From an uncultured Saprospiraceae bacterium (lineage in GTDB: Bacteria; Bacteroidota; Bacteroidia; Chitinophagales; Saprospiraceae), in the NCBI GenBank assembly GCA_937928575.1, contig CALFWW010000072.1, forward strand, positions 1-64,000: a DNA stretch of 64,000 nucleotides, in the 5' to 3' direction. The notes below the pieces were generated by a model. The model did not search any database. It was not told the origin of the DNA and worked only from the letters and a program-made list of their open reading frames with translations. Shown here piece by piece: positions 46,126 to 63,485 of the stretch. Both the position numbers and the translations under genes were made by a program. Numbering within the stretch: the stretch's first letter is position 1; each line of letters opens with the position of its first letter.

Positions 46126-46198
46126 CGCTGACAAAATCATGACACAACATAAGTGTCTGATTTTAGCGGAATTATACGATATACCAAAAAATTATCTG

Positions 46199-47605
46199 AT
46201 GATATATAAATCATTGAAGCTCTGTGTTTTATTTCTTTTCTTTTCTCTAATTCAGATCTCTACAGTATCTGCAGAAGCGGATCTTGCCAGCGGTAAAGCG
46301 CTTTTCAAAGCAAAATGTGCATCATGTCATAATAAGGACATGAGAAGCGATTTGACCGGTCCTGCATTAGGTGGAGTAGAAGAACGCTGGGAAGGTAGAG
46401 ACGAAGTTTTAGCAGCATGGATTAGAAACTCTCAAGCGGTCATCGCATCCGGTGACAAATACGCCAACGAATTATATGTAAAGTGGAATAAAAGTCAAAT
46501 GACTGCTTTCCCTGAATTGTCAGATGCTGACATTGAAAGTTTATTGGGGTATATCGATGGAAAATGGAAAGGAACTTATGATACACCTAAAAAGGAGGAA
46601 GGAGCAGCAGGAGGAACGACAGAAAAGAAAAATAACTTACCCTTATACGGCTTAATCGCATTTGTTTTAGCCGCTCTTGCAATCGTTCTTGCAAGAATTA
46701 TTTCCAACCTAAACCACATGATTGCGGTAAAAGGTGGAGCTTCTGATGCAGTTCGTCCTGGACTTTTCGAATCAATCGGTGGAAAGAGTTTTGTCAGTTT
46801 CCTTTTGTTTGGATTGGTCATTTGGGGAGGTTATACTACTGTAAACAACGCCATCGGCTTAGGTCGTCAACAAGGGTATGCTCCAGAACAACCCATTAAA
46901 TTCTCACACGCTACACACGCAGGCGCACAAAAGATAGATTGTCAATATTGCCACGATGGTGCAAGACGTAGTAAGCACTCTGTTATACCTGCTGCGAATA
47001 CCTGTATGAATTGTCACAAAGCTGTTAAAAACGGTAGCCAATATGGTACTGCTGAGATTTCAAAAATCTATGCATCTGTAGGTTATGATCCAACAAGTGA
47101 CACTTACATTGAGAACTACGATCAAATGCCACAAGATTCAATCAAAAGAGTTTATCAAGAGTGGTTCAAATCACAATATTTGAAAGAAAAGAGTTTGGAG
47201 AAATTGGATAGAGTGGGAGAAGATTTAGTGGAGACACAATGGTCTGATATAGTAACTTCATTGACGGGTCCACAAAAGAAAAAAATCGGTGGTCCAATCG
47301 AATGGGTACGTATCCACAACTTACCAGATCACGTTTATTTCAATCACGCACAACACGTTACTGTCGGAAAAGTAAATTGTGAAAACTGTCACGGAAAAGT
47401 GGAAGAGATGGAAGTAGTTGGACAATACTCTCCTTTATCAATGGGATGGTGTATCAATTGTCACAGAGAAACAGAAGTACAATTTCAAGACAACGAATAT
47501 TATAACTCATTTAAGATCTATCACGATGAAATCAAAAAAGGTGATCGAACGAAAGTGACCGTGGAAGAAATTGGTGGACTAGAATGTCAAAAATGTCATT
47601 ATTAA
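46199..47605 (+). CDS. actA: ACIII subunit ActA, multihaem cytochrome c with extra N-terminal cytochrome c domain
   Basis: 468 residues from the ATG at 46199, with a signal-like helix (LCVLFLFFSLIQ) at the start. An N-terminal class I cytochrome c domain (CASCH near 40) is followed by a transmembrane helix (about 150-170) and a second one. The C-terminal part has five further CxxCH haem sites: CQYCH, CMNCH, CENCH, CINCH and CQKCH at the very end. The six-haem total matches Bacteroidota ActA with a fused monohaem domain. It takes electrons from the quinol-oxidising core of the complex. A hairpin separates it from actB. Confidence 0.93.
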   Translation: MIYKSLKLCVLFLFFSLIQISTVSAEADLASGKALFKAKCASCHNKDMRSDLTGPALGGVEERWEGRDEVLAAWIRNSQAVIASGDKYANELYVKWNKSQMTAFPELSDADIESLLGYIDGKWKGTYDTPKKEEGAAGGTTEKKNNLPLYGLIAFVLAALAIVLARIISNLNHMIAVKGGASDAVRPGLFESIGGKSFVSFLLFGLVIWGGYTTVNNAIGLGRQQGYAPEQPIKFSHATHAGAQKIDCQYCHDGARRSKHSVIPAANTCMNCHKAVKNGSQYGTAEISKIYASVGYDPTSDTYIENYDQMPQDSIKRVYQEWFKSQYLKEKSLEKLDRVGEDLVETQWSDIVTSLTGPQKKKIGGPIEWVRIHNLPDHVYFNHAQHVTVGKVNCENCHGKVEEMEVVGQYSPLSMGWCINCHRETEVQFQDNEYYNSFKIYHDEIKKGDRTKVTVEEIGGLECQKCHY

Positions 47606-47607
47606 GT

Positions 47608-47631
47608 AGAGACGTTTTATACAACGTCTCT
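47608..47631 (+). repeat. Hairpin between actA and actB
   Basis: AGAGACGTT (47608-47616) pairs perfectly with AACGTCTCT (47623-47631). The T run is short, so it is more likely a transcript-processing or attenuation element than a full terminator. Similar GAGACGTT palindromes are dispersed in Bacteroidota genomes (from memory). Confidence 0.6.
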
Positions 47632-47659
47632 TTCGAAAAATTTTCATTCAAGAATATAT

Positions 47660-50600
47660 ATGAAAAACCAGAAAAACGAAGCTTGGGTAGGAATTAGTGA
47701 TAAGACCAACGATCCGGATTTGATTGCACAAATTGATAAGGAATTCGTTGAACTACCTATCGTTGATACGCTATCTGATGAAGCAGCTATCGAAACTCCA
47801 GCCAACAGAAGAGACTTTTTAAAGTATCTAGGTTTTGGCTTAGGGGCAGCTACTATGGCTGCCGGATGTGATGCACCAATCAGAAGAGCCATCCCGTACG
47901 TAACCAAACCAGATACCATCGTTCCAGGTGTCGCTAATTATTACGCATCTTCTTTTGTAGATGGTGGTGATTATTGTGCCGTTTTAGTGAAAACAAGAGA
48001 AGGTCGTCCTATCAAGATTGAAGGAAATTCTTTGTCAAGTGTTACTAAAGGTGGAACAAACACACGGACTCAAGCAGCAGTATTATCTTTATATGATACC
48101 AATCGTGTGAAAGGTTGCTACAGCCAGAATGGTGAAGAAATGACTGCCATGAATTGGGCAGAAGTAGATAAGGCGATGGGCGCTAAATTAAATGCGGGTA
48201 GCCGTATCTTAATTATTACCAACACCATTTTAAGTCCGACTGCAAAGAAAGCTTTAGGTGAATTCACTGCCGCTTATCCAAATGCAAAAGTGGTAACTTA
48301 TGATCCGATTTCTTCTTCTGCAATGTTGGAAGCGAACAAAGAATGTTTCGGCGATCAAGTGGTTCCTGCTTATCACTTCGATAAAGCAAAAGTAATCGTA
48401 AGTGTTGGTGCTGACTTTTTAGCTACTTGGATTTCACCAATCGAATATGCTGCTGATTATTCTAAAAACAGAAGAATCGCTGATTACACAAAAGCAAAAA
48501 TGTCTCGCCACATTCAAGTGGAAAGCATGATGTCTTTGACAGGTTCAAATGCGGATAACCGTATTTTAATCAAACCATCAGAACAAGGTGCTGCAATCGC
48601 TAATTTATATAATGAAGTAGCGGCACTAGCAGGTGGTTCAAGTATATCAGCTCCTGCTATCAATGCAGATGCAAAGAAAGGTCTGAAAGCAGCTGCTAAA
48701 GATTTAGTAAATGCTGGAAGTGCAGGTCTTGTGGTTTCTGGTTCCAATAATGTCGGAGAACAAGTATTGATCAACGCAATCAACAACATGATTGGCGCTT
48801 ACGGAAATACATTAAGTTTTTCTGGCGCTTCTTTACAACGTCAAGGTTTAGATTCAGCTATCCAAGGTGCCATTTCTGAAATGCAAAGTGGAAGTGTTGA
48901 TACTGCTATCGTTTGGGGTGCGAATCCTGCTTTTGATTTACCAAATGCGGATAAATTTGCAGCTGCTTTTGCAAAAGTGAAAAACAAGATTGCTTTAGCT
49001 TACACGATAGACGAAACGTCTGCACTTTGTGATCATATCATCGGTGTACACCATTTCTTGGAGTCTTGGGGAGATGCAGAACCAAAACGTGGATACTATA
49101 GTTTGATTCAACCAACGATTGCTCCTTTGTTTGAAACTAGACAAGCAGAAGAGATATTATTACGTTGGGCAAAATCTAACAATTTAAATACGAATTCTGA
49201 TCAACCATATTACGAGTATGTCAAGAATAGCTGGAAAGGTTTAGCAGGAGGTTTCGCTTCCTTCGGATCATTCTGGGACAATACTTTACATGATGGTATT
49301 TATGAAGCACCAAAAGGTTCTTCAGCAAGTGGTTTTTCAGGAAATGTTTCTGGAGCTGCTGCAAAAATCAACAAGCCAGTTAATAGCGAATTAGAAATCG
49401 AATTTTTCGAATCATTAAATATTGGTTCTGGAAAATATGCAAATAATCCTTGGTTACAAGAAGTACCAGATCCGGTTACTCGTTGTACTTGGGGAAATCA
49501 ATTGACAGTTCCAACGCACTGGAATGGTTCTAATGATTACGAAACTTTCCGTGGTATCGGTAGCAGAAATGCGAAGAGTCATGGTGACTATGTAAACATG
49601 GGAATCAAAGGTCGTGAAGAAAAAGTTTCTGCTGTTCCACAATTCGGAATGATGAGAGGAACTTTAGGAATGGGAATTGGATACGGTCGTGAAGTAGTAG
49701 GAGAATGTGGTGCTGGAATTGGAACCAACGTGTACCCATGGTTATCAATTGATGCGAATGGAAATACTCAATACTATGCTACTAACGTAGAAGTTTCACA
49801 AATCGTAGGTCGTGAAAAAGAATTAGCGTGCGTTCAGTACCACCACACGATGGGATTGACGGGTTCTAAAACTGGATCGGACGAAGTAATTAATGTGGAT
49901 GAAGAAATTTTGGCATTCCAAGGTTCATTGACAGATCGTTCGATTATTCGTACTTCGAATTTGGATGAGTTGAACAAAACAGTTCCTGCACTTGTAAAGG
50001 AAAGAGGTCATCACCAATACTTAAATGATCAAACACTTTATCCTTTTGATGAGTACTCTGAAAAACTGTATAGTCAAGGTCATCACTGGGGAATGCATGT
50101 AGACTTAAATGCTTGTACTGGTTGTGCAGCATGTACAGTTGCTTGTATGGCTGAGAACAATGTACCAGTTGTTGGTAAAACAGAAGTTCACAGACACCAT
50201 GAAATGTCCTGGTTGAGAATTGATCGTTATTTCTATGGCGATGCTAACAATCCAAATACGGTTTATCAACCAATGATGTGCCAACACTGTGATAACGCTC
50301 CTTGTGAGAATGTTTGTCCAGTGGCTGCAACCAACCATAGTTCTGAAGGATTGAATCAAATGACTTACAACAGATGTATCGGTACTAGATACTGTGCCAA
50401 CAACTGTCCTTATAAAGTTCGTCGTTTCAATTGGCTGGATTATACAACAGCGGATTTATTCCCTGGTAACCAACCACACATCAACGATGAGAAGATTCCT
50501 TTTGGTGCTGACAACTTAACCAGAATGGTATTGAACCCAGATGTAACAGTTCGTTCACGTGGTGTGATTGAGAAGTGTTCTTTCTGCGTACAAAGAATTC

Positions 50601-50845
50601 AAGAAGGTAAATTGACCGCAAAAGCAGAACGAAGAAACTTAGCGGATAATGACGTAAGAACGGCTTGCCAAACAGCTTGCCCAACTCAAGCGATCATTTT
50701 CGGTGATGTCAATAATCCAAATTCTGAAGTGAGCAAACGTATCGCGTCAGATATGACCTACCAAGTAATTGAAGAAGTGAATATTCAACCATCTGTGAAT
50801 TACTCGATGAAAGTAAACAACAGAAGTGAATTGATCGACGCATAA
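47660..50845 (+). CDS. actB: ACIII subunit ActB, molybdopterin-oxidoreductase-like plus iron-sulfur fusion
   Basis: 1061 residues. A twin-arginine signal (NRRDFLKYLGFGLG, about 50-63) sends it across the membrane folded. The body (about 75-760) resembles molybdopterin oxidoreductases but, as in known ACIII, is not expected to hold the cofactor. The C-terminal ferredoxin part (about 810-1035) carries CTGCAACTVACMAEN, CQHCDNAPCENVCP, CIGTRYCANNCPY and CSFCVQR with CQTACPTQ, enough for one 3Fe-4S and three 4Fe-4S clusters. It relays electrons from the quinol site to the haems of ActA. Confidence 0.94.
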   Translation: MKNQKNEAWVGISDKTNDPDLIAQIDKEFVELPIVDTLSDEAAIETPANRRDFLKYLGFGLGAATMAAGCDAPIRRAIPYVTKPDTIVPGVANYYASSFVDGGDYCAVLVKTREGRPIKIEGNSLSSVTKGGTNTRTQAAVLSLYDTNRVKGCYSQNGEEMTAMNWAEVDKAMGAKLNAGSRILIITNTILSPTAKKALGEFTAAYPNAKVVTYDPISSSAMLEANKECFGDQVVPAYHFDKAKVIVSVGADFLATWISPIEYAADYSKNRRIADYTKAKMSRHIQVESMMSLTGSNADNRILIKPSEQGAAIANLYNEVAALAGGSSISAPAINADAKKGLKAAAKDLVNAGSAGLVVSGSNNVGEQVLINAINNMIGAYGNTLSFSGASLQRQGLDSAIQGAISEMQSGSVDTAIVWGANPAFDLPNADKFAAAFAKVKNKIALAYTIDETSALCDHIIGVHHFLESWGDAEPKRGYYSLIQPTIAPLFETRQAEEILLRWAKSNNLNTNSDQPYYEYVKNSWKGLAGGFASFGSFWDNTLHDGIYEAPKGSSASGFSGNVSGAAAKINKPVNSELEIEFFESLNIGSGKYANNPWLQEVPDPVTRCTWGNQLTVPTHWNGSNDYETFRGIGSRNAKSHGDYVNMGIKGREEKVSAVPQFGMMRGTLGMGIGYGREVVGECGAGIGTNVYPWLSIDANGNTQYYATNVEVSQIVGREKELACVQYHHTMGLTGSKTGSDEVINVDEEILAFQGSLTDRSIIRTSNLDELNKTVPALVKERGHHQYLNDQTLYPFDEYSEKLYSQGHHWGMHVDLNACTGCAACTVACMAENNVPVVGKTEVHRHHEMSWLRIDRYFYGDANNPNTVYQPMMCQHCDNAPCENVCPVAATNHSSEGLNQMTYNRCIGTRYCANNCPYKVRRFNWLDYTTADLFPGNQPHINDEKIPFGADNLTRMVLNPDVTVRSRGVIEKCSFCVQRIQEGKLTAKAERRNLADNDVRTACQTACPTQAIIFGDVNNPNSEVSKRIASDMTYQVIEEVNIQPSVNYSMKVNNRSELIDA

Positions 50846-50851
50846 TAAACC

Positions 50852-50986
50852 CCAAAGGGGTAAAAGCAATAAACAAGGGCAACGCCCTTGTTTAAGTAAC
50901 AAGTCAGATTTCAAAGCTCTAAAGGAGCGGAAGCAGTCTGAAATATTAAAAAATAATAATCAAAGCGTCCGCATGAGGCGGATGCT
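50852..50986 (+). repeat. Series of hairpins between actB and actC
   Basis: In about 135 bases there are four stem-loops: CCCC/GGGG, AACAAGGGC/GCCCTTGTT, GCTC(T)/(G)GAGC within a larger ATTTCA-type pairing, and AGCGTCCGC (50964-50972) with GCGGATGCT (50978-50986). Such stacks may set relative subunit levels by RNA processing. None has a terminator T run, in keeping with read-through to actC. Confidence 0.6.
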
Positions 50987-51002
50987 AAAACCAAATAAGT
51001 TT

Positions 51003-52934
51003 ATGAGCGCACCTATCTCGAATATAAGGGAACCGCTAATAACCGGAAGTAAAACTTACCATCAAATCACAGAGGATTTGATCGGACCTACTGAGAAGGT
51101 CCCAGGTTTTGCGTGGATAGCCGGCGTAATGACTTCACTTGCTTTATTAGCATTTGGAGGAGTAGCCATCTTTTGGACCATCTGGTATGGGATCGGTTCA
51201 TGGGATTTGAATAGAACAATTGGATGGGGTTGGGATATTACCAACTTCGTATGGTGGATTGGTATTGGTCACGCGGGTACGCTGATCTCTGCGATCTTAC
51301 TTTTGTTCCGTCAAAAATGGAGAATGGGGGTAAACCGTTCTGCAGAGGCAATGACCATCTTCGCCGTAATGTGTGCAGCCTTGTTTCCAGGTATTCACAT
51401 GGGACGTATCTGGATGGCGATGTTCATTTTCCCTTATCCAAATACACGTGGACCATTATGGGTAAACTTTAACTCTCCACTTCTTTGGGATGTATTTGCA
51501 ATCTCGACTTATTTTACCGTATCCTTATTATTCTGGTATACCGGTTTGGTACCGGATTTTGCAACCGTAAGAGACCGTGCGAAAGGATTCCGTAAAAAAA
51601 TCTACAGCTTCTTAGCTTTTGGATGGACCGGAAAAGCAAAGCACTGGCAACGTTGGGAATCACTGTCATTGATCTTGGCAGGTATCGCAACACCACTGGT
51701 ACTTTCTGTACACACGATTGTATCTTTTGATTTCGCCACTTCTGTAATTCCAGGATGGCACACGACAATTTTCCCACCTTACTTCGTAGCAGGAGCGATC
51801 TTCTCAGGATTCGCGATGGTATTGACATTGATGTTGATTGTAAGAAAGGTATTGAAAATTGAAGACTACATTACGATTGGACATATTGAGTCGATGAATA
51901 AAGTAATCCTTTGTACAGGTTCCATTGTTGGGGTTGCGTACTTAACAGAGCTTTTCATTGCTTGGTATTCTGGATATGTATATGAGCAATTCGCATTTTA
52001 TAATAGAGCATTGGGACCCTACTGGTGGTCTTATTTCGGTATGATGTCTTGTAACGTAATTACACCGCAATTTTTCTGGATCAAAAAAATCAGAAGAAGT
52101 GTGGCTTGGACATTTGTATTATCAATCGTGGTAAATATCGGGATGTGGTTTGAGCGGTTTGTAATTATTGCAACAACACTAGCACGTGACTATTTGCCGT
52201 CATCATGGAGTTACTATGTACCTACATGGGTTGAGGTTGGTATCTATGTTGGAACCTTCGGATTATTCTTCACATTGTTCTTGTTATTCCTGAGAGTTGC
52301 ACCAGTGGTAGCAGCTGCCGAAATCAAGTCTATCTTGAAAACAGCTGGAGATCAATACACAGGTCCAAATGCAACACATCATGCACACCATGATGATCAC
52401 GGACATGATGACAAACATGAAGATTTGAAATTGCCTGCTGATTCCAACTCATTCATGGATAGCAATAGGAATGTTGCCACTGCTCCAATCGTTGAAAAAA
52501 CGAAACGAACAAATACCCAAGAAGAAACGACATCTTACCAAAAAATTGAAGACGATCCTGAGGTTTATAAAGGAAAAGAAATTGACACTAATTTAGATCC
52601 GGATGATCCAAATTATAAAAGTTCATTCGTAGCAGGTGCAGTAGGTGCTGGTGCAGGATTGACTTCATTAGGCACACACGAAGATGATTTGAAAAAAGTA
52701 GAAGGAATCGGACCAGCAGTTGAAAAATTGTTGAAAGAGGGTGGTGTTAAAAATTGGAAAACATTAGCAGCAGCGAATCCAGAGCAATTAAAAGAATTGT
52801 TGGTAGAAGCTGGTGGTACTTTCAAAACAATGGATCCAACAACATGGCCACTTCAAGCACAAATGGCGGATGAAGGTAGATGGGCAGAATTGGAAAAATG
52901 GCAAGATGATTTAGATGGTGGAAAGATTTCGTAA
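51003..52934 (+). CDS. actC: ACIII subunit ActC (NrfD-like) with C-terminal helix-hairpin-helix-like domain
   Basis: 643 residues. About ten transmembrane helices (residues 35-470) form the NrfD/PsrC-type quinol-binding subunit. Signatures include NFVWWIGIGHAGTLISAILL and GRIWMAMFIFPYPNTRGPLW. A His-rich loop (HHAHHDDHGHDDKHE) and an acidic linker follow. The last ~75 residues carry LKKVEGIGPAVEKLLKEGGV and DPTTWPLQAQMADEGRW, a helix-hairpin-helix-like module not part of canonical ActC. I chose the ATG at 51003 (MSAPISN) over one ten codons upstream that lies in a hairpin. This is the proton-translocating quinol oxidation core. Confidence 0.92.
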   Translation: MSAPISNIREPLITGSKTYHQITEDLIGPTEKVPGFAWIAGVMTSLALLAFGGVAIFWTIWYGIGSWDLNRTIGWGWDITNFVWWIGIGHAGTLISAILLLFRQKWRMGVNRSAEAMTIFAVMCAALFPGIHMGRIWMAMFIFPYPNTRGPLWVNFNSPLLWDVFAISTYFTVSLLFWYTGLVPDFATVRDRAKGFRKKIYSFLAFGWTGKAKHWQRWESLSLILAGIATPLVLSVHTIVSFDFATSVIPGWHTTIFPPYFVAGAIFSGFAMVLTLMLIVRKVLKIEDYITIGHIESMNKVILCTGSIVGVAYLTELFIAWYSGYVYEQFAFYNRALGPYWWSYFGMMSCNVITPQFFWIKKIRRSVAWTFVLSIVVNIGMWFERFVIIATTLARDYLPSSWSYYVPTWVEVGIYVGTFGLFFTLFLLFLRVAPVVAAAEIKSILKTAGDQYTGPNATHHAHHDDHGHDDKHEDLKLPADSNSFMDSNRNVATAPIVEKTKRTNTQEETTSYQKIEDDPEVYKGKEIDTNLDPDDPNYKSSFVAGAVGAGAGLTSLGTHEDDLKKVEGIGPAVEKLLKEGGVKNWKTLAAANPEQLKELLVEAGGTFKTMDPTTWPLQAQMADEGRWAELEKWQDDLDGGKIS

Positions 52935-53139
52935 ATGAAGTCATCACCCTGCAATTTAGTGTTTACAATCTCGCTTTAGATTTGAGGAAATCGGTGTGGA
53001 GTGCGAGGCAGAAAACGAAGGCATAGCGTGTTATAGCGAGTATTTCTAACGAAGTAATCCAAAGCGACTTGCCAAATATATGTGATGATTGTAATTATTA
53101 AATGGCATGATTTAAATAAACTCGATATCAATTATAAAA
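52935..53139. other. actC-actD spacer with short direct repeats
   Basis: 205 bases, longer than most gaps in this cluster. ATAGCG occurs twice within 16 bases (near 53024-53040), flanked by GGCAG and TTGCC words and AACGAA repeats. It resembles extragenic repeat DNA rather than coding sequence. No ORF is supported. Confidence 0.4.
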
Positions 53140-53697
53140 ATGGTAAATAAAAATAAAACAGTTTTATTCGGTCTTTATGACGATGAAACAGATTTGATTA
53201 GAGCAATCAGAAAAGCGAAAGCGGCTCACATTGAAATAGATGAAGTCTATACCCCTTTCCCTGTTCACGGATTGGACCCTGAATTGGACTTGAAAGAATC
53301 CAGATTGCACATAGCAGGATTCATCTATGGTGCCATGGGTACACTGACTGCCTTTCTTTTTATGTCGTGGGTATTTACCCGTGACTGGCCAATTATATTT
53401 GGAGGTAAGCCATATTGGTCAGTACCTGCTTTTATTCCGATTACATTTGAGTTAACGGTATTGTTCTCAGCAATTGGAATGGTCGTAACTTTTTATACCA
53501 TTTGTGGAATGGGGCCTGGAGCGAACAACCCAATTTTACATGATAGAATTACAGATGATAAATTCTGTATCGCATTTGATGTAGAAGGTGGAAGTCAAGA
53601 TCACCACGGTGACGATCATCACCCGGTTGATGTTGAGAAGCTGAAAGATTTTTTCAAAACAACTGGTGCGACAGAAGTACAAACCAAAGTAATTTAA
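53140..53697 (+). CDS. actD: ACIII subunit ActD (DUF3341)
   Basis: 185 residues. The N-terminal soluble domain (VLFGLYDDETDLIRAIRKAK) and two transmembrane helices (about 62-82 and 105-127) are typical of DUF3341 proteins, the ActD membrane subunit of ACIII. The tail has a His-rich run (DHHGDDHHPVDVEKL). It has no redox centre and probably helps assemble the quinol-side subunits. Its order between actC and actE is the standard one. Confidence 0.93.
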   Translation: MVNKNKTVLFGLYDDETDLIRAIRKAKAAHIEIDEVYTPFPVHGLDPELDLKESRLHIAGFIYGAMGTLTAFLFMSWVFTRDWPIIFGGKPYWSVPAFIPITFELTVLFSAIGMVVTFYTICGMGPGANNPILHDRITDDKFCIAFDVEGGSQDHHGDDHHPVDVEKLKDFFKTTGATEVQTKVI

Positions 53698-53719
53698 ATC
53701 ACGAGAATTAACTTTTAGA

Positions 53720-54877
53720 ATGAAAAATATTCAATTCATATTATTAGCAATTTGTGGCCTCGTTGTATTTGGTTGCTCACCTTCTGGAGATAATTTCCAA
53801 GGGAATGAATACATGCCGGATATGGGACACTCTGTTGCTTATGAAGCCAACTACTATGATTACTATCGATACAATCGTTGGGGATCAGAAGACGACTATC
53901 ATAAAATGGCACAACCTCGTAAACCAGTTCAAGGAACAATCCCTCGTGGATATGCAGGTGCAGGAGCATCCCTTTCCAAACTAGCGATGCTGAGAGGAAT
54001 GAATTCACTCAATGCTATTGCCGTTCCGCCAAATGGAAATGTCCCTTATTATTATGAGGACACAGAACCAGAGCGTACACGTGCAATGAATGAAATCATT
54101 GAAAACCCGTTTCCAATTACAAAAGCTGGATTAGCTGAAGGAAAAAACTTGTACGATATTTTTTGTGGAATTTGCCACGGTGCAAAAGGAGATGGTGGAG
54201 GACTAATTTATGATACGGATGCGAATCCATTAGCGAAATATCCTGCAGCTCCAGCAAACTTGATTTCTGAAGAATTTGTTTCTGCAACCAATGGTAGATA
54301 TTATCACGCAATCATGCACGGTAAGAATGTAATGGGTGGTTACGCAGATAAGATATCCTATGAAGAAAGATGGCAAGTGATTCACTACATCAGAGCACTC
54401 CAAGCAAAAGCAACGGATAAAGAATATAGCCAAACAGCCAACACACTAGGTGGGGGTGGTCAACCAGCTGGAGAAAATTATTCTCGGAATATATCAATGA
54501 ACGACAACCAAGGTTTCAATATGAGTCCGAGGGGAGGGCATTCATCAGGATCACACGGTGGAGGAAATCTTCACAATGGAAGTACACACAACGGATCTCA
54601 CAGTGCAACACATAGCGGAACACAAAGTATGCAAGGTCTACAACAAGGTACAACCATACAAGGAGGTGTTAATTCAACCATGCAAATGCAAGATGGGGTG
54701 ACAGTACCAGGAACTACGATTGATGGTGAGAAAAAAGGGAAAGTGAAGAACTTTTTGAAAAAGACGGGTGAGAAAATTAAAGAAGGTGGAAGTAAGGTAA
54801 AAGAAGGAACGAAAAAAGTAGGTGGCAAAATAAAAGGTGCACTTAAAAAGAAAGATGCTGGAAACGGCGGAAACTAA
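53720..54877 (+). CDS. actE: ACIII subunit ActE, monohaem cytochrome c lipoprotein
   Basis: 385 residues. The signal peptide has the lipobox VFGC (Cys 19). The region MPDMGHSVAYEANYYDYYRY is typical of ActE and is followed by a class I cytochrome c domain (about 130-225) with CGICHGAKGDGGG and a distal NVMGGYADK methionine. The tail is unusual: a Gly/Ser/His/Asn-rich stretch with HNGS-type repeats (about 265-300), then a Lys/Gly-rich end (KKTGEKIKEGGSKVKEGTKK). It passes electrons to the oxidase or to a soluble carrier on the outer face. Confidence 0.92.
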   Translation: MKNIQFILLAICGLVVFGCSPSGDNFQGNEYMPDMGHSVAYEANYYDYYRYNRWGSEDDYHKMAQPRKPVQGTIPRGYAGAGASLSKLAMLRGMNSLNAIAVPPNGNVPYYYEDTEPERTRAMNEIIENPFPITKAGLAEGKNLYDIFCGICHGAKGDGGGLIYDTDANPLAKYPAAPANLISEEFVSATNGRYYHAIMHGKNVMGGYADKISYEERWQVIHYIRALQAKATDKEYSQTANTLGGGGQPAGENYSRNISMNDNQGFNMSPRGGHSSGSHGGGNLHNGSTHNGSHSATHSGTQSMQGLQQGTTIQGGVNSTMQMQDGVTVPGTTIDGEKKGKVKNFLKKTGEKIKEGGSKVKEGTKKVGGKIKGALKKKDAGNGGN

Positions 54878-54925
54878 AAACTAAAACGAAAAAATTTCCC
54901 GCAAGGGTAAAAAATAAAATTAGCA

Positions 54926-56797
54926 ATGGCAGCAACATCACATAACGATCCATACAGACGTCATTATGAAAATGAAGAGTTCAAATTTGAAGGGTACCAA
55001 CGTACCGTCTTAATTGGCTTCATGGTTTTAGGTCTTGTCTGTTTAGGACTCACTTGGTTTGATGCAGAACCTTTTCATGCGAGATTCTGGAGTAACTTGT
55101 TACACAACACTGTTTACTTCACTGGTTTCGGATTCATCGCCATCTTTTGTATGTGTGCATTTATCACAGCCTATGCGGGTTGGTATGCCGTCATCAAAAG
55201 AGTGTGGGAAGCGTACTCCATGTTCTTGATATTTGGTCTCGGACTATTGATGATCATCGGAGCCGGAATGTGGATGGGATGGCACAATCTTTATCATTGG
55301 GCAGATCCTACTTTATTGGATCCTAACCATGAAAACTATGACAAGATTATGGTTGGAAAAGCGCCATTTTTAAATAAATCTTGGTGGACATTTGGAACCC
55401 TAATCATCGTTGGAATGTGGTATGCATTTTCTAGGAGATTGAGAAGCTTGTCATTGAGTGAAGATAGAAATGGGGATGATGACAAAAACAATAATTTTGT
55501 TCACCACCGTAAAATGCGTTTAGTTGCAGGTATCTTTTTGCCATTAGCGGCATTCTCAAGTGCTGCAATGATTTGGCAGTGGGTGATGTCTGTAGATTCT
55601 CACTGGTATTCAACCATGTTTGCTTGGTATGCAACAGCAAGTTGGTTTGTAGGTGCCATGTCATTGACGATATTGATTCTATTGTATTTGAAATCAAAGG
55701 GATATTATAAAAGTGTTACACCAGAACACATTCATGATTTAGGAAAATTCATTTTCGCATTCAGTATTTTCTGGGCGTATTTATGGTTCTCACAATTCAT
55801 GTTAATCTGGTATGCAAATGTAGGTGAGGAAACGATCTACTTCAGACATAGAATGGATAATTATCCTTTCCTCTTTTACGCGAACCTTGTGATGAATTTT
55901 GCGTTACCTTTTTTCATACTTATGCGTAATTCGACAAAAAGAAAATTTGGTACGGTAGGTTTTGCAGCAGCATTACTTTTATTCTCACACTGGTTTGATT
56001 TCTTTCAAATGATTAAACCAGGTGTTTTGCACACAACACATGTAATGGGTGGACATGGCAATCATGGTCATGACAATCATGACACACATAGTGGATTAAT
56101 TGAAGAAAAAAATGAACCAAAAGCTGTATTTACTTCTTTAAATAGTATGGAACAGAATCCACTAAAAAAAGTAGGAGACAAAGCTGAAAATATAGCAACT
56201 AAAGCTGGTGATGCAGTATCAGGTGCTGGTGATCAAGTTGGCGATGCTGCCAAAAAAGCACTTGAAAAAGCGAAGCAAATTGGAACCGATGCAAAAGATC
56301 ATGTAAAAGATGCAGCCCATAAAGCTGGTGATCATTTGGAAGGTGCGGCCCACAAAGCTGGAGCGCATATGAATAAAGCAGGTCAGAAAATAGAACACGC
56401 AGTTGATCATGGCAATGCTGCTCATGATGACCATGGAAAACAAGGACACCAGCATGATGCGCATAGTGGAGACCATAAGAGTCACGACAGTCACGGAGCT
56501 CATGATAAGGGTCATACTAATCACAAAGCACATACTTCAGGTGCTCACGATGCTCATGGACACGACGCTCACGCACACGATGCACATGGACATGACGCTC
56601 ACGGTGGTGATCACGGACATGGAGATCACGCAGTACCATACACCGCAGGATTTACAATGCCGGGCTTCTTAGAGCTTGGAACCTTTTTAGGATTTTTAGC
56701 AATGTTCCTATATGTTGTGTTCAGCTCCTTAGCGAGTGCAAAATTAGAACCGAAAAATGATCCTTATTTGGAAGAAAGTTATCACCACCATTCATAG
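54926..56797 (+). CDS. actF: ACIII subunit ActF with LEA-like and His-rich insertion
   Basis: 623 residues. About nine transmembrane helices (residues 25-365) form the ActF integral subunit (YRRHYENEEFKFEGYQRT, MIGAGMWMGWHNLYHWAD, HFDF-type SHWFDFFQM). Before the last helix (about 578-600) lies a ~200-residue insertion. It consists of alanine/lysine 11-residue-like repeats (KAGDAVSGAGDQVGDAAKKA) followed by a very His/Asp-rich stretch (GAHDAHGHDAHAHDAHG). Core ActF proteins end after the helical part, so the insertion is lineage-specific. It may bind metal or hold neighbouring subunits (inference). Confidence 0.9.
   Translation: MAATSHNDPYRRHYENEEFKFEGYQRTVLIGFMVLGLVCLGLTWFDAEPFHARFWSNLLHNTVYFTGFGFIAIFCMCAFITAYAGWYAVIKRVWEAYSMFLIFGLGLLMIIGAGMWMGWHNLYHWADPTLLDPNHENYDKIMVGKAPFLNKSWWTFGTLIIVGMWYAFSRRLRSLSLSEDRNGDDDKNNNFVHHRKMRLVAGIFLPLAAFSSAAMIWQWVMSVDSHWYSTMFAWYATASWFVGAMSLTILILLYLKSKGYYKSVTPEHIHDLGKFIFAFSIFWAYLWFSQFMLIWYANVGEETIYFRHRMDNYPFLFYANLVMNFALPFFILMRNSTKRKFGTVGFAAALLLFSHWFDFFQMIKPGVLHTTHVMGGHGNHGHDNHDTHSGLIEEKNEPKAVFTSLNSMEQNPLKKVGDKAENIATKAGDAVSGAGDQVGDAAKKALEKAKQIGTDAKDHVKDAAHKAGDHLEGAAHKAGAHMNKAGQKIEHAVDHGNAAHDDHGKQGHQHDAHSGDHKSHDSHGAHDKGHTNHKAHTSGAHDAHGHDAHAHDAHGHDAHGGDHGHGDHAVPYTAGFTMPGFLELGTFLGFLAMFLYVVFSSLASAKLEPKNDPYLEESYHHHS
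56400..56640 (+). repeat. In-gene low-complexity His/Asp repeats of actF
   Basis: Tandem variants of gctcatggacacgac and cacgatgcacatgga encode HDAHGHDAHAHDAHG and related words. The repeats give misleading open frames in other phases. They are prone to length change. Confidence 0.75.
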
Positions 56798-56856: not shown

Positions 56857-58350
56857 ATGACAACATTAATCATCATTTTATGTCTGATATTAATTGGAAT
56901 CGTAATCGTCCAATTAGGTAGAGTCAATGAGTTGGCTGGAAAAATCAGAGGACAAGAAGCATCAGAAAATAGTGCGAATAATTTCCACGGAATTATGTGC
57001 ATTGTCTTTCTCATTGGCTTTATGATTATGGCAGTGTGGACAACGGCATATTACAAAAACTGGTGTTTGGGTTATGGACCTCATACTTCCGCATCAGAAC
57101 ATGGTGAACTGTTGGATGGCGTTTTCAATATTACCGTATTTTTTACGGCAATTGTTTTTGTCGCTACTCAAATTGCATTATTTGTATTTGGTTACATTTA
57201 CCGTTATAAAAAAGGACGTAAAACTTTATGGCTTCCTCACGATAACAAATTAGAGATTATCTGGACAGCGATTCCTGCATTTGTAATGACAATCTTGGTT
57301 GTTGGTGGATTAGATGCTTGGAACACCGTGATGGCGGATGTCGGACCCGATGAGGAATATATGGAAATTGAAGCCACAGGTTCACAATTCCTATGGTTTA
57401 TCAGATATCCTGGAGCAGATGGAAAACTAGGAACCAAAGACTACAAAAAAATTACTGGAATCAATCCACTAGGACAGGATTTTACAGACGCAAAGAACTG
57501 GGATGATTTCCAACCTTCTGAAATCGTATTGCCAGTAAATAAAAAAGTAAGAGTTCGTATTACGGCTCGTGATGTATTGCACAATTTTGATTTACCGCAT
57601 TTCCGTGTGAAAATGGATGCAATTCCTGGTCTACCAACCTACTTCGTTTTCAAACCAACAATCACTACTGAACAGTATCGTCAGAATTTAAAAGAATATC
57701 CAGAATATAATGTTTTGGCTGATCCGGAAGATCCTGAAAATAAAAAGAAGTTGTGGGAGGAATTTGACTACGAACTAGCTTGTGCAGAATTGTGTGGAAA
57801 AGGACACTTCTCCATGAGAAAGACTGTCAGAATTGTTACTCAAGAAGAATATGATCTATGGTTAGCTGAACAGCAATCCTTTTACATGTCTCAAATCAGA
57901 AATAGTGATGAGGATCCAATGAAAGGAAAAGCTTTGGACATGGAAATTCGACAAAGAAGAATGACTTTTAACAATGCAGTTGAAAAAGCAAGAGCTTCAG
58001 AAACAGATAAAGTGATTCGTTTGGATCATGTAAAATTCCAAACTGGTTCAGCTAATCTAACCGATGATTCACGTTACGAATTAGATAACTTAATTGGTGC
58101 ATTAAATAAATATCCAGAAATGGTAATTGAAGTAATGGGTCATACAGACAATGTAGGAAATCCAACAGGAAATCAGACTTTATCTAACTCAAGAGCAGCC
58201 TCTGTTGTCAACTATCTGTTGAATAAAGGTGTTAATAGTTCAAGAATGACTTCGAAAGGATATGGAGATAAAGTTCCTGTTGAAGATAATGCAACGGCAG
58301 AAGGGCGAGCGAAAAACAGAAGAACGGAGTTTAAAATTATTTCTCAATAA
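56857..58350 (+). CDS. coxB: Cytochrome c oxidase subunit II fused to an OmpA-like domain
   Basis: 497 residues. Three hydrophobic segments are visible in the first ~160 residues, including one at the very N-terminus. The CuA cupredoxin domain follows (HNFDLPHFRVKMDAIPG and CAELCGKGHFSM with the Cys, Cys, His and Met ligands near 306-317). A linker leads to a C-terminal OmpA/MotB-type peptidoglycan-binding domain (about 386-497): DHVKFQTGSANLTDDSRYEL, EVMGHTDNVGNPTGN, LSNSRAASVVNYLL and GRAKNRRTEFKI. It accepts electrons from ACIII. The fusion could tie the oxidase to the cell wall (inference). Confidence 0.94.
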   Translation: MTTLIIILCLILIGIVIVQLGRVNELAGKIRGQEASENSANNFHGIMCIVFLIGFMIMAVWTTAYYKNWCLGYGPHTSASEHGELLDGVFNITVFFTAIVFVATQIALFVFGYIYRYKKGRKTLWLPHDNKLEIIWTAIPAFVMTILVVGGLDAWNTVMADVGPDEEYMEIEATGSQFLWFIRYPGADGKLGTKDYKKITGINPLGQDFTDAKNWDDFQPSEIVLPVNKKVRVRITARDVLHNFDLPHFRVKMDAIPGLPTYFVFKPTITTEQYRQNLKEYPEYNVLADPEDPENKKKLWEEFDYELACAELCGKGHFSMRKTVRIVTQEEYDLWLAEQQSFYMSQIRNSDEDPMKGKALDMEIRQRRMTFNNAVEKARASETDKVIRLDHVKFQTGSANLTDDSRYELDNLIGALNKYPEMVIEVMGHTDNVGNPTGNQTLSNSRAASVVNYLLNKGVNSSRMTSKGYGDKVPVEDNATAEGRAKNRRTEFKIISQ

Positions 58351-58396: not shown

Positions 58397-60250
58397 ATGT
58401 CAGTAGTAAATTACGACGAAGATGTATTGATAAAGGAACAAGGGTTCGATGACCATTTTCATGACCACCATCATGGAGACAAATATCAATCTAATTTTAT
58501 CACTACTTATATCTTCAGCCAAGATCACAAGATCATCGGTAAACAGTTTTTGATTACGGGAATGATTTGGGCGATCATCGGCGCCGGTATGTCAATCATC
58601 TTTAGATTGCAATTAGGTTTTCCAGATGATAGTTTGACATGGATTAAACCATTACTAGGAAAATGGATCACGGTCAACGAAACAACAGGTATTGGGACAC
58701 TGGCTCCAGAGTTTTATTATGCGCTGGTCACCATGCACGGAACCATACTGGTCTTTTTCGTATTGACGGCCGGGCTCTCGGGTACCTTTAGTAATTTATT
58801 AATACCCTTGCAAATTGGAGCCAGAGATATGGCATCACCGCTGTTGAACATGCTTTCATATTGGTTCTTCTTTATAGCAGGTGTCGTCATGTTCTGCTCA
58901 CTATTCTTAAGTACTGGACCTTTCGCAGGTGGATGGACTGCTTATCCTCCGCTGAGTGCATTGCCTCAAGCCTCCGATGGATCGGGTGCTGGGATGACAA
59001 TGTGGGTAGCGAGTTTAGTGTTATTTGTTGTTTCCGTTTTGCTTGGTGGAGTCAACTATATCACAACAGTACTAAACTTGAGAACAAAAGGAATGACCAT
59101 GTGGAGAATGCCACTAACGATTTGGGCATTTTTGATTACTGCAATCTTGGGATTATTATCATTCCCGGTTTTGGTTTCTGCATTGTTGTTGGTCATGTGT
59201 GATAGAGGATTAGGAACCAGTTTCTTTTTAAGTGAAATTTTCGTCGGTGGTGAAGCATTGAATCACGTGGGAGGTAGTCCGGTTTTATACCAACATCTTT
59301 TCTGGTTCTTAGGTCACCCTGAAGTATATATTATTATTCTTCCAGCGATGGGACTGACTTCAGAAGTATTATCTGTACACGCACGTAAGCCTATTTTTGG
59401 TTACAAAGCGATGGTCTTTTCGATCTTGGCAATTGCATTCTTATCATTCATCGTATGGGCACACCATATGTTTATGTCAGGAGTGAATCCATTTATCTCT
59501 AACTTCTTTGTAATCTTTACATTGATTATTGCGGTACCATCTGCGGTGAAAGTATTTAACTGGATTGCCACGCTCTATGGTGGAAATATTCGATTCGTAA
59601 GTGCCATGTTATTTGCAATGGGTTTTGTATCATTATTCATCTCTGGTGGGTTGACGGGTATTTTCCTTGGAAATGCAGCAATTGATATTCAGATGCACGA
59701 TACTTATTTTGTAGTTGCTCACTTCCATATTGTAATGGGAATTGCAGCCTTCTTCGGAATGTTCGCGGGTATCTATCATTGGTTCCCGAAAATGTATGGT
59801 CGTTTTATGAATGAAACACTTGGAAGAATTCACTTCTGGGGTACTATGATAGGAGCATACGCCATTTTCTGGCCAATGCATTATCTAGGAATGGCAGGAG
59901 TCCCTCGTAGATATTACCGTTTTGATAACTTCGAAACTTTCTCGCATTTCAGTCAGATGAATCAGTTCATCACGATAGCAGCAATCATCGTATTCTTCTT
60001 ACAGATTTTATTCGTAGTGAATTTCTTCGTAAGTATCTGGAAAGGAAAACGGGTTACTACAAAAAATCCTTGGGGTGCAACTACCTTAGAGTGGACGACT
60101 CCAATTGATGCAGGTCACGGAAACTGGCCTGGAAATATTCCTGCAGTTCACCGTTGGGCTTATGACTACGGAAAAGATGGGGTAGAATTTATTCCTCAGA
60201 TTGTTCCATTGACGGATGAGGAAAAAGAAAACGAAGCGGACTTGCATTAA
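58397..60250 (+). CDS. coxA: Cytochrome c oxidase subunit I
   Basis: 617 residues, twelve transmembrane helices of the haem-copper oxidase core. Key sites are TMHGTILVFF (low-spin haem ligand, about residue 115), GHPEVY (CuB His near 307 with the cross-linked Tyr), HHMFMSG (CuB His pair) and DTYFVVAHFHIVMG (haem a3 and haem a ligands). It reduces O2 to water and pumps protons. The presence of GHPEVY marks an A-type oxidase. The N-terminal extension is His/Asp-rich (FDDHFHDHHHGD). It follows coxB after 46 bases. Confidence 0.97.
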   Translation: MSVVNYDEDVLIKEQGFDDHFHDHHHGDKYQSNFITTYIFSQDHKIIGKQFLITGMIWAIIGAGMSIIFRLQLGFPDDSLTWIKPLLGKWITVNETTGIGTLAPEFYYALVTMHGTILVFFVLTAGLSGTFSNLLIPLQIGARDMASPLLNMLSYWFFFIAGVVMFCSLFLSTGPFAGGWTAYPPLSALPQASDGSGAGMTMWVASLVLFVVSVLLGGVNYITTVLNLRTKGMTMWRMPLTIWAFLITAILGLLSFPVLVSALLLVMCDRGLGTSFFLSEIFVGGEALNHVGGSPVLYQHLFWFLGHPEVYIIILPAMGLTSEVLSVHARKPIFGYKAMVFSILAIAFLSFIVWAHHMFMSGVNPFISNFFVIFTLIIAVPSAVKVFNWIATLYGGNIRFVSAMLFAMGFVSLFISGGLTGIFLGNAAIDIQMHDTYFVVAHFHIVMGIAAFFGMFAGIYHWFPKMYGRFMNETLGRIHFWGTMIGAYAIFWPMHYLGMAGVPRRYYRFDNFETFSHFSQMNQFITIAAIIVFFLQILFVVNFFVSIWKGKRVTTKNPWGATTLEWTTPIDAGHGNWPGNIPAVHRWAYDYGKDGVEFIPQIVPLTDEEKENEADLH

Positions 60251-60263
60251 CTCGAAGTAAGAT

Positions 60264-60353
60264 CCTTAAAAGGGCTCAGAAAAATTGCTTAAAACGCGAA
60301 GTAATATTTTTTGAAAGAGAAAGTATAAAAAATAAAGGACAGCCCTTTTAAGG
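60264..60353 (+). repeat. 13-bp long-range inverted repeat between coxA and ctaB
   Basis: CCTTAAAAGGGCT (60264-60276) and AGCCCTTTTAAGG (60341-60353) are perfect complements 64 bases apart. They form a potential stem in the leader just ahead of the ctaB start. Each arm is itself close to self-complementary (CCTTAAAAGG), so alternative local hairpins exist. Transcript processing or lowered ctaB expression is possible. Confidence 0.6.
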
Positions 60354-60373
60354 GTAGAATACACAAAGTAAAA

Positions 60374-61288
60374 TTGAAAACGACAAAAGTCATATCATCC
60401 AAAGTTGAGAAAAGAAACATCTCTGGTTTTCTTGGTCAAAAGATCAATGACTATAAGATGTTGGTGAAATTCAAATTGAATTTGCTAGTTGTCTTTTCTG
60501 CAATCATGGGATTTTTAATTGCATCGAATGGAGCGATTCATTGGACCGCGTTAGCGATATTGGCTTTAGGTGGATTCTTAGTAACAGGTGCAGCCAACAC
60601 ATTAAATCAAGTACTGGAAAGAGAATTTGACCAAAAAATGAAAAGAACTGCAGGTCGTCCGCTTGCTGCTGGAAGAATGCAAATTTCTGAAGCGGTGATG
60701 TTGGCAGGTCTGATGAGTATGGTTGGAATCATATTGTTAGCATTATTTAATCCGATGACCGCCTTATTAGGAATGTTGTCATTGATATGCTATTCATTTA
60801 TTTATACACCTTTAAAGAGAGTAGGGCCGATTGCTGTATTTGTAGGTGCGATTCCAGGAGCTTTACCAGCGATGATTGGAGTAGTAGCGTTGCAAGGTGG
60901 ATTGACTCCTTTGGCATTAGCATTATTTGGGATTCAATTCATGTGGCAGTTTCCACACTTTTGGGCAATTGCTTGGGTAGGTCACGAAGACTATACCAAT
61001 GCAGGTTTCAGATTATTGCCATCAAAAAATGGAGAGAAAGATGCTTCGGCAGGATTTCAAAGTATGATTTATGCTTTGTTGATTTTACCATGTATTTGGA
61101 CTCCTTTTTATTTAGGAATTACAGGAATTTTCTCCGCATCCTTTTTGACAGTATGTACGTTGATATATGCTTTCTTAGGATTCGAATTATATAAAAAATG
61201 TACAAGGGAAGCAGCAATGAAATTGATGTTTAGTTCATTCATTTATTTGCCGCTCGCTTTCATCGTTTTGTATTTGGATAAGATTTAG
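60374..61288 (+). CDS. ctaB: Protoheme IX farnesyltransferase (haem O synthase)
   Basis: 304 residues with about nine transmembrane helices, a UbiA-family prenyltransferase. The catalytic region NTLNQVLEREFDQKMKRTAGRPL contains the NxxN/DxxxD-like prenyl-diphosphate site, and the second acidic region is near GHEDYTNAGFRLLP. It adds farnesyl to haem b, the first step to haem A for CoxA. The start is a TTG at 60374, because no ATG fits before residue 29. A shorter form from the ATG at 60458 would lose the usual N-terminal KINDYK stretch. Confidence 0.92.
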   Translation: MKTTKVISSKVEKRNISGFLGQKINDYKMLVKFKLNLLVVFSAIMGFLIASNGAIHWTALAILALGGFLVTGAANTLNQVLEREFDQKMKRTAGRPLAAGRMQISEAVMLAGLMSMVGIILLALFNPMTALLGMLSLICYSFIYTPLKRVGPIAVFVGAIPGALPAMIGVVALQGGLTPLALALFGIQFMWQFPHFWAIAWVGHEDYTNAGFRLLPSKNGEKDASAGFQSMIYALLILPCIWTPFYLGITGIFSASFLTVCTLIYAFLGFELYKKCTREAAMKLMFSSFIYLPLAFIVLYLDKI

Positions 61289-61372
61289 ATAAGAAATTTA
61301 AATTAGGTTACGAAAGGTGTGTTCACGATTCTGATCAATTTTATATTTAGTTACTAATTTTTAAATTAAACA

Positions 61373-61951
61373 ATGGACTTGTCAGTCAAAAAAGAAAGAC
61401 GTTACCACAGTAAAATTCATCCGCAAAAATTTGCGTTATGGGCGGGTTGTGCGAGCATCGTGATGTTGTTTGCAGCGTTGACAAGTGCGTATATTGTGAG
61501 AAAAGCCGCTGGAAATTGGTTGGAATTTAAATTACCGGTTCAGTTTTTTTACAATACATTAGTGATCATCATCAGTAGTATTACTTTACAAGCATCCTAT
61601 TACTTTTTCAAGAAAGGGAATGCACAATTGTATCGTGGCTTATTGGTGGTTTCATTTTTGTTAGCTTTAGTGTTCCTCGGAATGCAATATTCAGGTTGGT
61701 TGTCAATGGAGTCGATAGGGGTAGAGTTGGCTGGAAATCCATCTGGATCTTTTGTTTATGTAATATCGGGTTTGCATGCTGCTCACTTATTGGGTGGAAT
61801 AGCGGCAATAATTGTCGCTTTAGTGCATGCCTTCATTTTAAAATATAAAGTCACGAACCAAAGAAAACTTCGTTTTGAATTGACCTTAACGTATTGGCAC
61901 TTCATGGGAATTCTTTGGATTTATCTTTTATTATTTTTTATACTACAGTAA
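61373..61951 (+). CDS. Cytochrome c oxidase subunit III (short form)
   Basis: 192 residues with five transmembrane helices. HPQKFALWAGCASIVMLFAA and LHAAHLLGGIAAIIVALVHA, then a final YWHFMGILWIYLLLFF, are typical of the subunit III family in Bacteroidota oxidase clusters. It likely supports the D-channel side of CoxA and contains no metal. It is the first of two subunit III genes in a row. Confidence 0.93.
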   Translation: MDLSVKKERRYHSKIHPQKFALWAGCASIVMLFAALTSAYIVRKAAGNWLEFKLPVQFFYNTLVIIISSITLQASYYFFKKGNAQLYRGLLVVSFLLALVFLGMQYSGWLSMESIGVELAGNPSGSFVYVISGLHAAHLLGGIAAIIVALVHAFILKYKVTNQRKLRFELTLTYWHFMGILWIYLLLFFILQ

Positions 61952-61994
61952 TATTTATCAGCAACAGTTGATATACTTAAACTAATTAATACTA

Positions 61995-63002
61995 ATGGCT
62001 CACGACACAGCGCATACAGATGTAATTCCTGAACAGGGGCATCTGGAACACAAAGACTATATGGATTCGCATGACGGACCAGCATGGGGAGGAGGTAAAC
62101 GTCCTTTCAAAGCTAGTTACGGAAAGTTGATGATGTGGTATTTCCTTTTATCAGATGCATTTACTTTTGCAGGTTTCTTGATTGCTTATGGTGCAATTCG
62201 TTTTAGTATGCCTACATGGCCAGTGCCAGATCATGTATTTTCTGCCTTCCCAGGTGGATTCCATGGATGGCCATTAATTTTTGTAACCGTAATGACTTTC
62301 GTGCTGATCTTAAGTTCTGTCACAATGGTGAGAGCAGTACAGGAAGGACATCGCAGAAACAAACGAGGGGTCATGTTCTGGATGGCACTTACCATTATTG
62401 GAGGTGCAGCGTTCCTTGGATGTCAAGCTTGGGAGTGGAATACGATGATCAATGAAGAAGGCGTCACCGTAACAAAGAACCCATTTTCTACTCATCTTCA
62501 AGGTGGAACTTATTTGACTGGTGCAGAAATTGAAGGTGCAGGATTTGAAAAAGTCATGACAGAAACGCACGGTAAAACTGCTACTTATTATTTAGAACCA
62601 GGCGCAGAAGATATTGAAGAAAACCGCTTGTTTGTAAAACAAAATCACCAGAAAGAAGTGCTGGCAGGGGAATCATTTAAGGAGGAAGATCCTTACTTGA
62701 TTACTTACAACCACGATACCCACTTGTATGAACCTTCAGCTTTCAAAACACCAGATGGTTCAATTCACAAAGAAGCATTTGGTCCAATTGCATTCGGTTC
62801 ACTATTCTTCTTTATTACTGGGTTCCATGGATTTCACGTATTTTCAGGAGTTGTATTTTTGCTAATCATTTTGATCAATGTAGCAAGTGGCTTATATCAC
62901 AATCGTTCCAACAATTATGAAATGGTTGAAAAAATCGGATTGTATTGGCACTTTGTCGATTTAGTATGGGTATTTGTATTCTTAGTTTTCTATTTGTTGT
63001 AG
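61995..63002 (+). CDS. Cytochrome c oxidase subunit III (long form with insertion)
   Basis: 335 residues. A His/Asp-rich soluble N-terminus (about 1-45) leads to the subunit III fold (MMWYFLLSDAFTFAGFLIAY, GFHGFHVFSGVVFLLIIL, final YWHFVDLVWVFVFLVFYLL). Between helices three and four there is an extra ~100-residue acidic soluble stretch (about 155-255), absent from ordinary subunit III. That loop would lie outside the membrane. Two subunit III genes side by side are usual in Bacteroidota. Confidence 0.92.
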   Translation: MAHDTAHTDVIPEQGHLEHKDYMDSHDGPAWGGGKRPFKASYGKLMMWYFLLSDAFTFAGFLIAYGAIRFSMPTWPVPDHVFSAFPGGFHGWPLIFVTVMTFVLILSSVTMVRAVQEGHRRNKRGVMFWMALTIIGGAAFLGCQAWEWNTMINEEGVTVTKNPFSTHLQGGTYLTGAEIEGAGFEKVMTETHGKTATYYLEPGAEDIEENRLFVKQNHQKEVLAGESFKEEDPYLITYNHDTHLYEPSAFKTPDGSIHKEAFGPIAFGSLFFFITGFHGFHVFSGVVFLLIILINVASGLYHNRSNNYEMVEKIGLYWHFVDLVWVFVFLVFYLL

Positions 63003-63068
63003 TACTTGAACACCAGACAATAGAAACTTAAGGTTAAAAAATTTTAAAAAAATTAATTCTCTTTTATA

Positions 63069-63485
63069 ATGGCAGATTTAAGTTACGAAGATTCGAAAAA
63101 ACTAGTATTCAAAGGAATGGCGTTGTTGGCAGTAGTGACGTTGATTGAAGTAGCGATTGCATTGGTCGGAAAAGGTTATGTGATCGAAGGTTTTCATTTA
63201 CCAGTTTGGTTAATGTACATTTCGATGATTGGATTGAGTCTATATAAAGCATATTTTATTGTTTATGAATTTATGCACATGAAATATGAAGTAAAAGGAT
63301 TGGCGATGAGTGTATTGTTACCAACGGGATTATTAGTATGGGCAGTTATTGCTTTTTTCAATGAGGGAAATTCATGGAATCAACGAAGAACCTTGATCAA
63401 GGAAAAAAATGCAGAAACAATTGATGATACGCGAAAAAGTACAGGAAGTATTATTGATCTAAAAGATGTCAAAAATTTGAACTAA
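63069..63485 (+). CDS. Cytochrome c oxidase subunit IV (caa3-type)
   Basis: 138 residues with three transmembrane helices (about 13-33, 45-65 and 78-98), matching the small caa3-type subunit IV (FKGMALLAVVTLIEVAIALV; YISMIGLSLYKAYFIVYEFMHMKYE). The tail is charged and soluble. It lacks redox residues and stabilises the oxidase. It is the last gene before a strong terminator. Confidence 0.93.
   Translation: MADLSYEDSKKLVFKGMALLAVVTLIEVAIALVGKGYVIEGFHLPVWLMYISMIGLSLYKAYFIVYEFMHMKYEVKGLAMSVLLPTGLLVWAVIAFFNEGNSWNQRRTLIKEKNAETIDDTRKSTGSIIDLKDVKNLN

Follow-up and report, generated by a model that had tools for sequence, protein, structure and literature searches.

An OmpA domain at the C-terminus of cytochrome c oxidase subunit II suggests wall anchoring of the ACIII-aa3 supercomplex in Saprospiraceae

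The 64,000-nucleotide stretch analysed here, which we call the window, comes from an uncultured Saprospiraceae bacterium and carries an act-cox operon on its plus strand. The genes actA, actB, actC, actD, actE and actF (46115-56797) are recognised by their open reading frames (ORFs), their domains and an order kept in relatives; as expected of an ACIII operon, a multiheme ActA, an iron-sulfur ActB, the NrfD-like ActC and ActF, ActD and the cytochrome ActE stand upstream of an oxidase. ActB, ActC and ActE have Pfam support and the act order in relatives is homologous, and ActD and ActF were assigned by position and size, ActF matching no Pfam family. The oxidase part consists of the coxB gene discussed below, followed by coxA, a ctaB-like gene, two subunit-III-like genes and one small subunit-IV-like gene (58397-63485), identified from ORFs and conserved order. 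The coxA gene (58397-60250; COX1 2.8e-145 in Pfam) adjoins the fused coxB in a gene order kept in relatives, and the smaller cox-side genes were named by similarity in order and sequence. From this operon, and from the placement of OmpA domains on CoxB or ActE described further below, we infer that ACIII and the oxidase form a supercomplex in this organism.

Several further features were seen in and near the act genes. At its C-terminus ActC (50973-52934) is extended by about 150 residues, part of which resembles a helix-hairpin-helix (HHH_5 5.3e-05, below cut-off); the extension seems to be missing from the shorter frames (471-525 codons) of ten relatives. ActF (54926-56797) ends in a long, histidine-rich tail with amphipathic repeats and comprises 623 codons, against 413-567 in the relatives compared. 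By eye, the product of a 541-residue ORF at 40172-41797 appears to combine a 4Fe-4S protein with an NrfD-like membrane protein in one chain.

Between actF and coxA lies coxB-ompA (56857-58350, plus strand), a single uninterrupted ORF of 497 codons that encodes CoxB, then a helix-containing linker and, at the C-terminus, a complete OmpA domain. In the protein, Pfam recovers COX2_TM at residues 77-148 (1.4e-06) and COX2 at residues 171-259 (4.2e-11), both above cut-off, as well as OmpA (PF00691) at residues 394-488 (1.9e-21; 76.7 bits against a cut-off of 27.2), the last covering positions 2-98 of the 98 in the profile. NCBIfam models for CoxB (2.6e-34) and YiaD-type OmpA (2.9e-36) also match, both below their equivalog cut-offs. 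Hydropathy and the AlphaFold model predict four transmembrane helices. Two of these form an extra N-terminal pair (residues 3-21 and 46-64; 56863-57048), evident from hydropathy, model and alignment and found in unfused relatives too, and the other two form the canonical CoxB hairpin (residues 85-110 and 134-152; 57109-57312; Pfam COX2_TM and hydropathy). The periplasmic CuA domain follows (residues 169-338; 57361-57870; Pfam COX2 and model), with H242 encoded at 57580-57582 and, as read from sequence and alignment, C309, E311, C313, H317 and M320 in the loop CAELCGKGHFSM (57781-57816); all six CuA ligands are invariant across 87 fused sequences. The transmembrane hairpin together with the periplasmic cupredoxin domain, detected by Pfam and by structure matches, places the protein in the CoxB family. 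An earlier note on this DNA had described a CoxB with intact CuA ligands and an OmpA-like tail in the same frame, and on both points it was right.

The remainder of the protein is made up of a linker (residues 339-385; 57871-58011), with a helix predicted at residues 361-380 in the model, and the OmpA domain proper (residues 386-496; 58012-58344), which is delimited by Pfam, PDB sequence matches, Foldseek and dN/dS. Structure prediction, proposed in the earlier note, returned a confident fold with a mean pLDDT of 86.8 and about 89-95 in the OmpA blocks. For the front half, Foldseek's matches were oxidase subunits II, the best being that of a caa3 oxidase (2YEV, 8e-14); the back half matched OmpA domains, among them PA0833 (6JFW, 9e-12) and a Capnocytophaga OmpA.

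Two residues of the tail are predicted to bind diaminopimelate: D431 (58147-58149), which lies in GHTDN and aligns with the GHTD motif of OmpA structures, and R446 (58192-58194), which lies in LSNSRA and belongs to an LSxxRA motif. Through these common motifs they correspond to D271 and R286 of Acinetobacter baumannii OmpA, both of which are reported to contact diaminopimelate (PMC6572160). GRAKNRRTEF, the stretch that had been put forward as an OmpA signature, does contain a conserved OmpA motif, N487-R488-R489 (58315-58323), invariant in the alignment save for one row cut at a contig edge, but the diaminopimelate pair lies elsewhere, in GHTDN and LSNSRA. In the same alignment G428, H429 and T430 vary little or not at all, and N439, L442 and S443 are invariant. 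Alignment-based counts for the aspartate and the arginine themselves are circular, since these sequences had been picked by motif, and we prefer the unbiased count from an HMM built solely from stand-alone OmpA paralogues. This HMM found 83 OmpA-positive sequences among 118 distinct CoxB tails, and the D431/R446 pair and the TD...R motif are kept in all 83; the loss of this pair, which had been named as evidence against the idea, was thus looked for and did not appear. The same two pocket residues also occur in OmpA domains whose binding has not been assayed. Compared with its nearest relative, G001, the window gene has a dN/dS of 0.052 in the CoxB core, 0.139 in the linker and 0.048 in the OmpA domain; the tail is under strong purifying selection and as constrained as the enzyme core. 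One lineage holds a decayed domain (L094:6892-7389 and L095:6892-7389), in which CoxB tails of OmpA length lack the aspartate, the arginine and the NRR motif. Pfam detected no OmpA in these two tails, and the AF2 model of the L094 tail is of medium confidence (pLDDT 70).

The fusion is the common state in the family. In a sample of 248 Saprospiraceae genomes, 225 have a CoxB at E<=1e-50; about 169 of these carry the full fusion, 51 a complete CoxB without OmpA, and 5 a cut or broken gene. The figure of about 169 combines the list of 225 with a targeted search of 75 weaker matches, and it counts as fused the 150 genomes with stronger matches, all of which reach at least residue 471 among the matches listed. 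Fused named isolates include Membranihabitans marinus, M. maritimus, Neolewinella antarctica and Lewinella sp. W8; Phaeodactylibacter xiamenensis has a CoxB without the OmpA domain. The earlier note had held that absence from close relatives would speak against the fusion, and the opposite was found. That a sequencing or assembly error joined two genes is next to impossible: nothing speaks for it except the state of the window genome's own assembly (G000, 5.35 Mb), which is fragmented into 284 contigs, and the same fusion in about 169 of 225 genomes, isolates and near-closed chromosomes included, rules it out. A search of viral contigs returned no relative. A contig titled Thermoanaerobaculia (L065, JAKLJF010000357.1) carries a Saprospiraceae-like coxB-ompA at 58% identity and is probably misbinned.

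Where CoxB lacks the domain, a neighbouring subunit can carry it. The actE gene of the window (53720-54877, plus strand) encodes a monoheme cytochrome c with a lipobox-like N-terminus and without OmpA. When operon flanks were scanned, an OmpA domain turned up at L100-L103, four loci whose CoxB is unfused, in a separate gene that lies about 3 kb upstream of coxB; this gene is the ActE of ACIII, with OmpA at its C-terminus (Pfam 3e-23) and intact motifs. A family-wide search with an OmpA-bearing ActE as query identified ActE-OmpA in 18 genomes, and in 18 of 18 CoxB ends before the OmpA domain. In CoxB-fused genomes the ActE match stops near residue 242, before the OmpA part, among the matches listed, and this includes genomes with weak ActE matches, which were searched separately. 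No genome with OmpA on both CoxB and ActE was seen among the ActE matches listed. The family displays three states, with OmpA on CoxB (about 169 genomes), on ActE (18) or on neither (about 33). In the operons of seven neither-state genomes, some of them inspected over part of their length, no other subunit bears an OmpA domain, and the act-cox gene order is kept. The naive chance of zero overlap between the two placements is 2.5e-13, a figure that ignores kinship and a possible single switch and is therefore not a fair test. A single clade for the seven CoxB cores tested is not rejected (p 0.83), and the domain may have switched between CoxB and ActE once or a few times, so that the lack of overlap carries less weight than the number of genomes would imply.

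The tails of the two subunits show a further likeness. The last part of the window's ActE is a stretch rich in Gly, Ser and Thr together with a basic helix, and the CoxB tail of L101, an ActE-OmpA locus, looks similar; the ActE and CoxB tails may have been exchanged. In three genomes of one genus (G094, G183 and G240) the ActE matches contain in-frame stops, pointing to a possible pseudogene or to a match that overruns the gene end.

CoxB-OmpA fusions also occur in three other families of the same order as Saprospiraceae (G293, G265, G269 and G281). In the CoxB tree, a quick tree with many unresolved forks, the cores of these four proteins fall outside the Saprospiraceae clade, in a starred group with unfused relatives. 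This separate, starred placement gives no support to a spread of the fused gene as a whole into the other families. Among the OmpA domains, those of G293 and G265 cluster with stand-alone paralogues (99/94), and a different paralogue is joined by those of G269 and G281 (83/90). A single origin for all CoxB-borne OmpA domains is not favoured (lnL 29 lower), nor is it rejected (AU p 0.156); a clade of the four out-of-family domains is rejected at the borderline (AU p 0.049). Taken together, the OmpA and CoxB trees and the AU tests make it likely that the fusion arose more than once. In family f4, two CoxB proteins without the domain (L151 and L152) have the C-terminal sequence HNIADNK(A)(M/T)EGKQ; it is similar to the end of the sister OmpA domain and is possibly what is left of such a domain. 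At the thresholds used, samples spanning the class and the phylum yielded no CoxB-OmpA or ActE-OmpA outside the order. Class-level CoxB frames such as those of G390, G568, G461 and G589 have 480-563 codons, with a match that stops near residue 344, and bear other C-terminal domains, possibly caa3-like cytochrome c.

Both CoxB and OmpA domains are well known, the fusion is readable by standard domain searches, and it resembles two known kinds of protein, the caa3-like fusion of a tail to CoxB and the MotB-like OmpA anchor. Subunit IIc of the caa3 oxidase (PDB 2YEV), the best structural match of the front half, likewise combines a CuA-bearing CoxB with an extra C-terminal periplasmic domain. In that subunit the extra domain is a cytochrome c with a CxxCH motif, whereas the window protein carries OmpA and no heme motif; with no cysteine beyond C313 and no Pfam cytochrome c domain, it is not a caa3 subunit IIc. 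OmpA, Pal and YiaD share the domain and its Asp/Arg pair, but they are outer-membrane proteins or lipoproteins, and here the domain sits on an inner-membrane respiratory subunit whose N-terminal half consists of transmembrane helices and a CuA domain, with neither a beta-barrel nor a lipidated N-terminus. Supercomplexes of ACIII with aa3 or caa3 oxidases are known from Flavobacterium johnsoniae (PMC8552683) and Rhodothermus marinus (PMC5928083), where the same act-cox cluster places the oxidase downstream of ACIII; in contrast to the present case, the sections of these two papers drawn on here describe no OmpA on any subunit. The nearest parallels are the MotB stator and the tail of a Gloeobacter PsaB. 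MotB and PomB, whose structures are among the PDB sequence matches of the tail, are inner-membrane subunits that end in an OmpA-type domain and belong to an ion-coupled complex. They offer a parallel in how they work, but they are homologous solely in the OmpA domain and form part of a motor stator, not of a redox enzyme. PsaB of photosystem I in Gloeobacter violaceus (PDB 7F4V) is an electron-transfer membrane subunit with an OmpA-like end (residues 757-863 of the 872 in chain aB, by PDB sequence match), although it belongs to a photosystem in an unrelated organism. The main text of the 7F4V structure paper mentions neither OmpA nor peptidoglycan.

We consider it probable, with some reserve, that the OmpA tail acts as a non-covalent peptidoglycan anchor for the ACIII-aa3 supercomplex. 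OmpA C-terminal domains bind peptidoglycan, and the CuA domain of CoxB lies outside the cytoplasmic membrane. With the CuA domain in the periplasm, the linker of about 47 residues would allow the OmpA domain to extend to the wall; there D431 and R446 would grip the diaminopimelate of a stem peptide, in the manner of OmpA, Pal and MotB. Such a tether would restrict the diffusion of the oxidase and, via the supercomplex, that of ACIII. Either periplasmic neighbour, CoxB or ActE, could bear the anchor and one copy would suffice, because the anchor would serve the whole assembly. Peptidoglycan binding, immobilisation and a benefit from it are what we infer, the binding from the conserved residues. 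In keeping with this, the ACIII-caa3 supercomplex of R. marinus, mapped at 20 angstrom, has ActE adjoining oxidase subunit II (PMC5928083), and ActE could, judging from the F. johnsoniae work (PMC8552683), have a structural role. A wall tether most simply accounts for an OmpA domain that keeps its pocket intact and can occupy either of two neighbouring subunits. The anchoring of ACIII and oxidase proposed in the earlier note gains from the conserved pocket, the strong selection, the probable repeated fusion and the 18 ActE-OmpA genomes; the roughly 33 genomes with neither fusion show, however, that the tether is not essential, and these genomes and the one decayed lineage mark the OmpA function as dispensable.

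The main rival is a domain that clamps the supercomplex together: OmpA would dock on ActA, ActB or ActE, or dimerise, and stabilise ACIII-aa3 with no contact to the wall. CoxB and ActE are neighbours in the supercomplex, so that OmpA would lie at the interface either way, and in R. marinus additional periplasmic subunits of ACIII may make the complex more stable (PMC5928083). A clamp would have no need of the diaminopimelate pair, however, which is lost in none of the 83 tails, and the variable, faster-evolving linker fits a tether more than a docked domain; the unbroken conservation of the pair favours the tether, and stabilisation of this kind appears unlikely to us, though it deserves attention.

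Immobility might also not be the point. The domain could be a tag that directs the oxidase to the septum, the poles or growth zones, or that couples respiration to the state of the envelope. Pal and similar OmpA-type domains work at the division site, which counts for such a role, and placement on CoxB or on ActE would fit it equally; but the operon showed neither a regulatory partner nor a signal for localisation, and we regard it as improbable. Less probable still is accretion, in which the fusion would have no function of its own. The genomes without OmpA on both subunits and the decayed copy in L094 and L095 accord with it, against which stand the dN/dS of 0.048, the full conservation of the motifs and the probable repeated gain of the fusion.

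Returning to the wall tether, the presence of OmpA on CoxB, or in some relatives on the partner enzyme ACIII, suggests that the ACIII-aa3 supercomplex is wall-anchored in the family. In its fullest form the proposal describes a movable OmpA module that was gained more than once, changed its carrier between CoxB and ActE, was kept in a single copy and holds the ACIII-aa3 of Saprospiraceae and of some neighbouring families to the wall, with selection for a fixed position; for this whole chain of events we see the balance as even. In the open-licence literature we found no description of a CoxB-OmpA fusion or of a link between ACIII and peptidoglycan.

Respiratory complexes are usually pictured as diffusing freely in the membrane. 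If the tether is real, an anchored supercomplex would tie energy conversion to the cell wall, and the reason for respiration to need a fixed site would become a question in its own right. The alternative placement on CoxB or ActE also provides evidence from genomes, without recourse to structures, that in vivo ACIII and the aa3 oxidase act as one unit. Both the wall anchoring and the behaviour as one unit can be tested in cultured strains.
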